Assembly: GCA_015206785.1 (NCBI GenBank)
Contig: JADEZQ010000008.1
Coordinates: 1-64,000 of the forward strand
Length of the DNA: 64,000 nucleotides
Direction of reading: 5' to 3'
Source: Quinella sp. 2Q5
GTDB taxonomy: Bacteria; Bacillota; Negativicutes; Selenomonadales; Selenomonadaceae
Each line of letters begins with the position of its first letter. The stretch's first letter is position 1. Positions 45,832 to 48,986 of the stretch are shown piece by piece. The translations under genes were made by a program, and so were the position numbers. The notes below the pieces were generated by a model that was given only the letters and a program-made list of their open reading frames with translations, searched no databases and was not told the DNA's origin.

Positions 45832-45896
45832 AGTTGCGGGATTCCTCTGCCAGAGAGATGTATGAGCGTGCGAAAAAAATTTTGGGAGGAATTCCG

Positions 45897-46880
45897 ATGA
45901 AGAACTGGAAAAAATTTTTGGCGGTGAGCGTGGCGGCTTCGAGTCTGTTTATCTCCGCGCCCGCCGACGCCGCTTACCAACTCAACGACGAGGTTGCCAA
46001 CCCGCCCGCCGCGTTGCAGATGGCGACGCAAATCGGTGTGCTCAAGTACGAGAACCCGTCAATGATGAACGCCGCCGACAAGGACGCAATCGTCGTCCTC
46101 AGCTTCGGCACGACCTTCCCTGACCAGCGCACCAAATCCATCGACGCCACCGCCAAAGCAATTCAATCCGCGCACCCCAATGCCAAAGTCGTCACCGCCT
46201 TCACCAGCCACATCGTCCTTAAGCACATCGCCGAGAACGAAGGCAAATGCGATTACCTGACGCCCGAGGAGACGCTTGAACAGCTCAAGCGCGAAGGCTA
46301 CACGCGCATTGCGCTCGTCTCGTTGGACGTTATCCCCGGCATGGAATACAAGTATGACGTCGCCCTCTTCCACGAGTACAAAACGCAGTTCAAGAAGATG
46401 ACGCTCGGCGAGCCGCTGATGTATTGGCAGGGGCAGGAAAATCAGCGCGACGACGTCACGCAGGTTATGCAAGCTCTGCACTTGCCGTCGTATAAGAAAG
46501 GCACCGCGATTCTGTTGATGGCGCACGGCACGCCCGATCCTTCCAACGCATACTATTCCGTCATGCAAAACAAGCTCAGCGCAATGAAACGCCCCGACGT
46601 CCACGTCTACACCGTCGAAGGTTGGCCGCGGCTGGAAGATTGGGCGGGCAAGCTCAAAATGCGCAAGGTCGAACGAATTATCCTCGTGCCGCTGATGATG
46701 GTTGCAGGTGACCACGCCAACAACGATATGGCAGGCGACGAGGAAGACTCGCACAAAATGATTCTGCAGAAGATGGGCTTCACGGTCGAAACCAAGCTTC
46801 AGGGGCTCGGCGAAAACAAACGCATCCGCGATATCTTCGTCGAACGCGCCAACGAGGCATTTGACGCCCTAACGAAATAA
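45897..46880 (+). CDS. cbiK: periplasmic sirohydrochlorin cobaltochelatase CbiK
   Basis: A 327-residue type II chelatase. It starts MKNWKKFLAVSVAASSLFISAPADAA, a Sec signal with an AxA cleavage site, so it is exported like the periplasmic CbiK of Desulfovibrio. The chelatase fold has VVLSFGTTFPDQR, LMAHGTPDPSN (metal His), VYTVEGWP (Glu) and VPLMMVAGDHANNDMAG (second metal His). CbiK inserts Co2+, or Fe2+ and others, into sirohydrochlorin; outside the cytoplasm it is more likely to act in heme or metal traffic. The ATG at 45897 has GGAGGAA upstream; the tracked start is 63 bases too early. No cobalamin genes adjoin. Confidence 0.92.
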   Translation: MKNWKKFLAVSVAASSLFISAPADAAYQLNDEVANPPAALQMATQIGVLKYENPSMMNAADKDAIVVLSFGTTFPDQRTKSIDATAKAIQSAHPNAKVVTAFTSHIVLKHIAENEGKCDYLTPEETLEQLKREGYTRIALVSLDVIPGMEYKYDVALFHEYKTQFKKMTLGEPLMYWQGQENQRDDVTQVMQALHLPSYKKGTAILLMAHGTPDPSNAYYSVMQNKLSAMKRPDVHVYTVEGWPRLEDWAGKLKMRKVERIILVPLMMVAGDHANNDMAGDEEDSHKMILQKMGFTVETKLQGLGENKRIRDIFVERANEAFDALTK

Positions 46881-46928: not shown

Positions 46929-46984
46929 GCTAACGTGTAGACTGCCGCCGCCGCTTATGCTATCATTAACGACGATTGGTTACA

Positions 46985-47013
46985 TTGACTTTCCTTTCGC
47001 GTTAAACTACAAT
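46985..47013 (+). promoter_or_regulatory. promoter of the chemoreceptor leader
   Basis: TTGACT, 17 bases, TACAAT. It sets a start near 47020 and so a leader of about 220 bases before the chemoreceptor ATG. Confidence 0.65.
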
Positions 47014-47017
47014 CGGA

Positions 47018-47236
47018 AGGCTTAAAACACCACGGCGGGAAGGAACGCTTGCGGGAGGGGGCAGCCTATAGAAAATTTTCGGCAGGTTTTTGCTACCGCA
47101 CCGAACGGCGGAAGGTCACGCCCAATTTTCGGGAATCGTTCGCAGTTGAGATTGGCGGTTGACAGGACGAAGAGCTCCTGCCGTAAAATCTCAGGCGCAA
47201 AAAATTTTTCAGTCCGCCAAGCAAAGGAGGAAGTGT
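47018..47236 (+). promoter_or_regulatory. long structured 5' leader of the chemoreceptor gene, candidate riboswitch
   Basis: This gene-free stretch of about 220 bases is GC-rich and full of complementary segments: AGGCT (47018) with AGCCT (47063), CGAAC (47102) with GTTCG (47138), GGCG (47107) with CGCC (47119), and GAGATT (47148) with AATCTC (47187) enclosing CAGGA/TCCTG. Just before the AAGGAGG, GGCG (47194) can pair with CGCC (47215), which competes with pairing of GGCGG (47154) to CCGCC (47214). The run AATCTCAGGCGCAAA with an upstream CGAAG vaguely recalls the glycine riboswitch core, but the rest does not fit. I call it a candidate regulatory RNA of unknown ligand. Confidence 0.5.
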
Positions 47237-47240
47237 TTCT

Positions 47241-48986
47241 ATGTCATGGTTAAACAACATGCGAGTTGCGTACAAGCTGTTGCTTCTTAACGTTATCGCA
47301 CTCATCGGCATGATCGTCATCGGGCTCGTCGGCTACAGCGCGGTTATGACGGCGCAAAACGATTTGAACACAATCAGCCAGACGTACTTGAAGGGCATTT
47401 TTGAGATTGGTCGTTGCCGCCACGCCGTCCGCTATGCGCAGGTTCAGGCAGTCCTCGCGCCGTTGACGGTTGACCCCGCGCTCTATCAGTCCCGCCTGGA
47501 TAAATACAACGGCGGCGTCAAAGAGTTGGAAGAGTCCTTGGCACTCTACGAAGAGATCATCAAAGACGACGCGCAGGCTCGTGCCCAGGTCGACGCCGCT
47601 AAACGCGAATGGGCTAAATTTAAAGCCGGCGCGGACAAAATGTTCACGATGAAATCGCCGGTCGGTGATACCAGTGCCATTGCCGCGCACCGCAACGCTT
47701 CGCTCGAATTCTATCAGAACGAAGTTATGCCCTACGCGGTTTCCTGCGGCGAAGCAATTTTGGCAATCCAGCAGAAAGCTTACGAAGACTCCGACAAGAC
47801 CATCGAACGCAGCAACGAAGGCATCGCCTCTTCCGTTCGCAACCTGTTCATCGCGCTCGGTGCCACTTTCGTCCTGTTGATTTTCATCAGCTTGTCCATC
47901 ACCAAAGCAATCACCAATCCGCTCAGCAACATGGTTCAGGCACTTCACCTGCTCAAAGAAGGCGACTTCCGCCGCACCGATTTGCTTGACGCCGACCGCG
48001 GCGACGAATTCGGAGCAATGGCTCTTGCAGTTCGTGAAATGCGCCAGGCAATCAGCAAACTGATTCACCAGACCAGCGACTCCTCCAGCCAGTTCGCCGC
48101 TTCTTCCGAAGAATTGACCGCCTCCGCACATCAAAGCGCACAGGCTTCCGAACAGGTTGCCCAGTCCGTCACCAACAGCGCGGGTGCCGTCGTCGAACAG
48201 CAGAGCTACGTCAACGACGCTATGGACGCCATCAACAACGCGCTTGAATCCATCGACAACCTCGCCAAGACCGCCGACAAAGTCGCCGAGCACGTCGCCT
48301 CCGCAAACGACGAGGCAGCCGCCGGTACCGAAGCTGTCGAAACCGCAGTTAACCAGATTATCAGCGTCGAGAAGATCGTCAACGACTCCGCGCTCACCGT
48401 CGACAAGCTCGGCAAACGTTCTCAGGAAATCGGTCAGATCGTCGAAGCCATCAGCGGCATCGCCGAACAGACCAACCTGCTCGCACTGAACGCCGCTATC
48501 GAAGCTGCACGCGCCGGTGAACACGGTCGCGGATTCGCGGTCGTTTCCGAAGAAGTCCGCAAGCTCGCCGAAGAATCGCAGGAAGCCGCCCAGAAGATCG
48601 GCACGCTCATCGGCGACATTCAATCCGACACCACCGACGCCGTCGACTCCATGCAGAAGGGCAACGCCGCTGTCCGCACGGGCACCCAGTCCGTCGAGAA
48701 ACTGCGCTCCACCTTCGACAGCATCCGCGACGCCTCCAACAACGTCCAGAAGGAAGCCAACAACATGGTCAAGGAACTCAAGGAAGTCGAAAAGCTCACC
48801 TACACAATCCGCGACCGCTCCGAAAAAATTCTCGACAAGGGCACGCAGGTCTCCCGTGAAATGGAAAGCGTCTCTGCCGCCGCCGAGCAACAGTCCGCTT
48901 CCGCCGAGGAAATCTCCTCCGCCGCAGACGAACTCGCCCGCTTGGCGCAAGACCTGCAGAACTCCCTGCAACGCTTCCAGTATTAA
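47241..48986 (+). CDS. methyl-accepting chemotaxis protein
   Basis: A 581-residue chemoreceptor. TM1 is [27 protein letters not shown]; a four-helix-bundle ligand domain follows (about 35-200, with [13 protein letters not shown]), then TM2 ([18 protein letters not shown]), HAMP ([23 protein letters not shown]) and the cytoplasmic coiled coil with the invariant hairpin tip [31 protein letters not shown]-terminal methylation helices ([14 protein letters not shown]) are present. It signals to CheA/CheW, not in the window. It is expressed from its own promoter through the long leader described separately. AAGGAGG lies 10 bases before the ATG. Confidence 0.95.

Follow-up and report, generated by a model that had tools for sequence, protein, structure and literature searches.

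The leader of approximately 220 nt that precedes a chemoreceptor gene in the window (the whole stretch of 64,000 nt that was analysed) is, as judged by comparison with its relatives, composed of two independent RNA modules arranged in tandem, both of which are previously undescribed in that no Rfam family covers them. The explanation that we favor, with moderate confidence and on comparative grounds, is that the leader serves a single chemoreceptor gene as a conserved 5' UTR with a cis-regulatory role, that it probably acts on translation, and that it was perhaps assembled from domesticated parts of guide RNAs. To our knowledge, regulatory RNAs preceding chemoreceptors are few and little has been established about the origin of new riboswitch-like leaders; a literature search for riboswitches preceding methyl-accepting chemotaxis genes found no report combining these. 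With its covarying helices and a fold that recurs in transposon RNAs of the same genus, the present leader is a tangible example of a cis-regulatory RNA that may derive from guide-RNA parts.

The leader is located on a 76 kb contig of a 1.8 Mb draft genome (79% complete) in which two MCP genes were found, one of them with the leader. This gene, the ATG of which lies at position 47241, is flanked by cbiK on the 5' side and by a gene for pyruvate:ferredoxin oxidoreductase (PFOR) on the 3' side, and the exact-pattern matches among close relatives are Selenomonadaceae/Selenomonadales MAGs, derived for the most part from ruminants. As a separate observation, positions 45834-46880 of the window encode a homologue of CbiK-type cobalt chelatases with a signal-peptide-like N-terminus, and this homologue stays beside the chemoreceptor gene in close relatives. 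An earlier reading of the window from its sequence alone (the sequence-only reading) had placed a good promoter 228 nt before the chemoreceptor ATG. That promoter is present and is conserved among orthologous upstream regions, which mostly read TTGACATTCCTTTT.CGTT..ACTACAATC when aligned, and transcription from it would be predicted to start near position 47020. A second promoter-like site sits 47 nt further upstream, with its TATGCTATCAT kept in orthologous upstream regions, and a similar TAGAC..TATTATA site precedes leaders that carry module 2 only. The features of the locus are collected in Table 1.

Table 1. Features of the chemoreceptor leader and gene, in positions of the window.
Feature	Position	Strand	Basis
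Upstream promoter-like site, TAGACT-N17-TATCAT, extended -10 TG	46938..46966	+	Sequence; orthologue alignment
Promoter, TTGACT-N17-TACAAT	46985..47013	+	Sequence; kept in most orthologues with modules 1 and 2
Module 1, conserved leader element	47033..47144	+	Model R2; matches in own genome and genus
Module 1 helices	47052-47054/47096-47098, 47103-47107/47137-47141, 47121-47123/47131-47133	+	Invariant pairs
Module 2, pseudoknotted leader element	47145..47222	+	Model R1; covariation
P1 5' strand UUGAGAU, pairs with 47188-47194 AUCUCAG	47146..47152	+	Covariation, strong in stand-alone relatives
P2 5' strand UGGCGG, pairs with 47214-47219 CCGCCA (pseudoknot)	47153..47158	+	Two pairs changed on both sides (G-C/A-U/U-A; G-C/A-U)
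P3 hairpin GACAGG...CCUGCC	47161..47182	+	4 of 6 pairs changed on both sides
Conserved GUAAA joint, 3' of P3	47183-47187	+	Leader alignment
P2 3' strand CCGCCA, directly before SD	47214..47219	+	Gap from core CCGCC to SD 3-9 nt, 33 leaders
Shine-Dalgarno (SD) AAAGGAGG	47223..47230	+	Sequence; kept in orthologue alignment
Chemoreceptor gene, 581 aa	47241..48986	+	Domains 4HB_MCP_1, HAMP, MCPsignal

The tandem arrangement emerged from DNA searches of the genus, in which the leader is present in many relatives and breaks at fixed points, such that aligned upstream regions fall into two blocks, module 1 and module 2. Specifically, module 1 occurs without module 2 in L051, L029, and L022, and module 2 occurs without module 1 in L057, L055, L059, L060, L064, and L066. 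Because each module occurs singly in some relatives, the two are regarded as independent units, either of which is able to stand directly before the SD. The receptors behind the latter six leaders share approximately 40% identity with the receptor of the window in their sensor half; the leader is kept, that is, while the sensor half diverges to this extent. In further module-2-only leaders (L105, L108, L111, L112, L157), a small conserved hairpin, CTTTCAG..CTGAAAG, is found on the promoter side of module 2.

Searches with models of each module suggest that both are confined, within the samples searched, to one genus of rumen Selenomonadaceae, where both precede one chemoreceptor group. Among 381 genomes of the class, model R1 (module 2), which was built from chemoreceptor leaders only, matches 47 genomes of the same genus and, weakly, two outside it (G294 and G228); these two lack much of the conserved core, the alignment of G228 additionally requires a 118-nt stretch, and both are attributed to chance. 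When 399 genomes from across the phylum were searched, R1 matched the own genome alone. Model R2 (module 1) recovers its own genome at E = 1.8e-25 and, with a cut-off of E<1e-5, finds the module in 25 genomes of the genus, with the downstream gene read in only part of them; an R2 match in L217 lies inside an ABC transporter gene and is likewise ascribed to chance. Module 2 was absent from phages, viruses, and plasmids when two exact patterns were compared with viral_contigs, a stand-alone element with phage records, and the leader with plasmid records.

Module 2 forms an H-type pseudoknot, in which P2 crosses P1, and encloses a further hairpin, P3; the unpaired GUAAA and UUG are conserved. RNAalifold, applied to 17 leaders, proposed P1 and P3 with compensatory changes in 6 of 13 pairs, and P2 (GGCGG with CCGCC) was added to these. 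Across 32 distinct leader cores, 91.1% of cells are paired vs. 86.1 ± 0.6 in shuffles, and the covariation score of these leaders, cut to their helix strands, is 0.265 vs. 0.172 ± 0.010 under a shuffle control that leaves sequence kinship in. This score is reached by none of 500 shuffles, slid structures attaining at most 0.094, and 9 of the 19 pairs, spread over P1, P2, and P3, are changed on both sides. Since the letters CCG served to find the 3' strand of P2, little can be read from the three inner pairs of this helix; of its outer positions, one shows G-C, A-U, and U-A and a second shows G-C and A-U. The sequence-only reading had proposed Rfam and covariation checks and had regarded a lack of covariation among homologous leaders as counting against it. 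Both checks were run, and the helices do covary. A conserved structure with covariation in a 5' UTR, such as this leader possesses, is of the kind by which riboswitches are recognized.

This structure would not have been apparent from energy. The leader folds at -66.3 kcal/mol vs. a shuffle mean of -67.4 kcal/mol (z = 0.26), an ordinary value for a nested minimum free energy, and the density of complementary segments put forward by the sequence-only reading is, by this measure, no more than chance; the actual structure is evidenced by homologue covariation instead. The resemblance to a glycine riboswitch that had been drawn in the same reading did not withstand comparison, as RF00504 has no match in the leader even at E up to 10. 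The letters in question (CGAAG, AATCTCAGGCGCAAA) correspond in module 2 to the P3 loop and to J3/1-P1b, and what the two RNAs have in common is limited to short strings of letters, whereas their helices differ and the conserved core of the leader is accounted for by module 2. More broadly, Rfam 15 at E up to 10 yielded no relevant family and no described riboswitch class for the leader, c-di-GMP riboswitch families included; the sole match, to Bacilli-1 on the opposite strand, scored 13.7 bits vs. a 55.6-bit cut-off and is considered chance. What endures of the proposal that a small-molecule-sensing RNA controls the chemoreceptor is the conserved, structured RNA leader before the gene, with a probable regulatory role for which a small-molecule ligand would be one possibility, but without its likeness to the glycine class.

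Module 2 holds a fixed place relative to the SD, CCG[CT] lying before the SD in 33 of 33 leaders analysed. For 18 of 33 leaders, though not for the window itself, the P2 3' strand (P2b) supplies through its CCGCC the strongest nested pairing available to the SD. This bears out in part the earlier suggestion of alternative pairings beside the ribosome binding site; the nested pairing is weak and partly forced, in that P2 fixes CCGC and the SD is purine-rich. Because the helices are under selection and hold a fixed position at the SD, we infer translational control, the sign and ligand of which would likewise be conjectural. Module 2 would most likely tune the start of translation by exchanging a state in which CCGCC is held in P2 for one in which CCGCC, once released, could pair with the SD or crowd it, and the equilibrium between these states would respond to the binding of a ligand, ion, or protein. 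Module 1, which is also able to sit directly before the SD, would probably provide a second input. No terminator-like site was found on the + strand within the leader.

With regard to known systems, we take module 2 to resemble the SAM-II and preQ1 classes, translational riboswitches with H-type pseudoknots in which the 3' strand of the pseudoknot likewise falls on or close to the ribosome binding site; module 2 differs from these in having no Rfam match, in containing P3 as an additional internal hairpin, and in the stretch of variable sequence that separates P1b from P2b. An HDV-like ribozyme was also considered, the strand order of which we presume to be alike, but was rejected because module 2 joins P3 to P1 through the conserved GUAAA and because no Rfam family matches. 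A strict metabolite or ion riboswitch, in which module 2 would be an aptamer whose ligand stabilizes P2 and so frees or blocks the SD, with module 1 as a second aptamer in tandem, is a possible though tentative account. It would explain the pseudoknot adjoining the SD, the conserved unpaired GUAAA and UUG, the compensatory changes, and the genus-wide tie to one gene group, but it is weakened by the absence of any Rfam riboswitch match and of any metabolic gene seen with module 2 as an ordinary leader. Additionally, the same fold is found on transposon RNAs that lack an SD, which makes a simple metabolite switch less certain.

These transposon RNAs make the leader more interesting than the glycine resemblance did. 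Model R1, trained on MCP leaders alone, unexpectedly matches the 5' part of stand-alone transposon RNAs with E down to 6.7e-12 per genome and up to eight matches per genome. The stand-alone RNAs possess their own promoter, followed by CTTTGAAAA, a box that we take to be boxA-like, and then by the module-2 fold; promoter, box, and module 2 are joined in this way in two or more different element types. In 37 distinct stand-alone sequences, many compensatory changes keep P1 and P3. For P2a, part of one group offers a possible pairing with a CGCA that immediately follows P1, and the other groups offer no clear partner; because P2a pairing differs in this way, the pseudoknot is not common to leaders and stand-alone RNAs in the same form. 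In group (i), Rfam places RAGATH-18 (RF03064), the scaffold of the IS607 TnpB guide RNA (PMC11061315), downstream of the module-2-like domain, and other groups finish in hairpins recognized by eye as IS200/IS605-like. Module 2 was not found within the tnpB-linked reRNAs examined, and a DNA search meant to link the group (ii) stand-alone RNAs to a tnpB gave one partial match, at a locus without a tnpB-like frame. Common ancestry of module 2 with the transposon RNAs is well supported.

The same RNAs bear on the idea that module 2 is a 5'-terminal element that protects or antiterminates transcripts and senses nothing, as their module 2 starts right after the promoter and the (T)CTTTGAAAA box. This idea appears unlikely: the box is missing from chemoreceptor leaders, module 2 is internal wherever module 1 is present, and P2, with its compensatory changes, is wired to the SD.

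For module 1, no covariation was found in the sampled sequences, its pairs being invariant and its sequence highly conserved. Its core, CUACCGCA.GAAC..CGGAAAGU.A.GCC, is common to IS200/IS605 TnpB omega-RNA; compared without gaps to a tnpB-linked IS605 omega-RNA it is identical at 24 of 29 positions (0 of 2000 shuffles), in a comparison of few sequences chosen post hoc, those from L174 and L191 mostly not aligning. When R2 was run over 74.6 kb of transposon loci, its two top-ranking matches fell on omega-RNA sites linked to tnpB. In contrast to omega-RNA, the hairpin CCGCAG-GAA-CUGCGG is broken in module 1, where GAACG pairs instead with a downstream CGUUC, and of the IS200/IS605 scaffold, right-end hairpin, and guide, the 29-nt core alone resembles anything in the leader, no right end being seen. 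Common ancestry of module 1 with transposon RNAs is suggestive, a weaker and partly post hoc link. Taken together, comparison of both modules indicates that the leader probably arose by domestication of part of the transposon guide-RNA elements (TnpB omega-RNA/reRNA) of the same genus, although the direction of evolution, domestication as against capture by a transposon, is one that we infer.

Module 1 carries insertions in some species (L041, L042, L096, L097, L098, L102). Such tolerance, together with the resemblance of both modules to transposon RNAs, would be expected of a fossil, that is, a guide-RNA element which inserted upstream and supplied a promoter and UTR without any regulatory role; this is decidedly improbable given the compensatory changes that keep the module 2 helices across the genus and the CCG[CT] that precedes the SD in each of the 33 leaders. 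As observations in their own right, an IS607-like right end (TTTTCAGTAACGG) splits module 1 of one chemoreceptor leader (L097:1297-1472), and the insertions in L096, L098, and L102 are palindromic repeats.

TldR proteins, relatives of TnpB, are reported to regulate flagellin in other organisms, and their guide RNAs likewise tie transposon-derived RNA parts to motility genes (PMC13418256). The chemoreceptor leader differs from the guide RNAs described there in being part of the mRNA itself, and no TldR-like protein was identified. That a TnpB or TldR-like protein reads the leader, as guide RNA or binding site, and so couples chemotaxis to a transposon-derived regulator would accord with this precedent and with the omega-RNA-like sequence in both modules. 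Unlike the IS607 TnpB reRNA, however, the leader has no RAGATH-18 match, right end, or guide, and the omega-RNA hairpin is broken in module 1. Nor is tnpB among the neighbors of the leader (cbiK, MCP, PFOR) or PF07282 detectable in the own genome, and no TnpB/TldR partner common to all 23 leader-bearing genomes, which are incomplete drafts, was found. Because the TnpB C-terminal domain was not found in 8 of these 23 drafts, the own genome (79% complete) among them, a reader of this type is deemed highly improbable.

A bolder form of the favored cis-regulatory reading holds that the genus employs the same structured RNA domain as a sensor in two settings: it would act as a translational switch at the chemoreceptor and would form the 5' domain of stand-alone transposon guide RNAs, the leader being a domesticated guide RNA turned riboswitch. 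We regard this as quite unlikely; if true, one cellular signal would control both chemotaxis and RNA-guided transposon activity.

Two further groups of elements were encountered. Stand-alone IS605-like RNAs from another genus of the family and from genome G003 (L218:1501-1624, L219:1501-1624, L220:1501-1594) carry a different conserved 5' domain (GGAGTCTGAAACGTCGATAACCAAGGCAGTAAGCTCC). Separately, approximately 20 elements, 245-320 bp in length and bounded by terminal inverted repeats (CCGTTACTGA/TCAGTAACGG), sit between an SD (AGGAGGTGA) and a start codon, the latter 5-9 nt past the right end (L114, L117, L120-L122, L124, L130-L133, L141-L143, L145, L147, L154, L156). AGGAG is the published TAM of IS607 TnpB (PMC11061315). 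Judged by sequence, the genes behind these elements resemble housekeeping genes (adk, atpC, greA, dnaJ, rplK, efp), and pairing of the inverted repeats within the mRNA is predicted with a mean probability of 0.66-1.00, which could place the SD beside the AUG.
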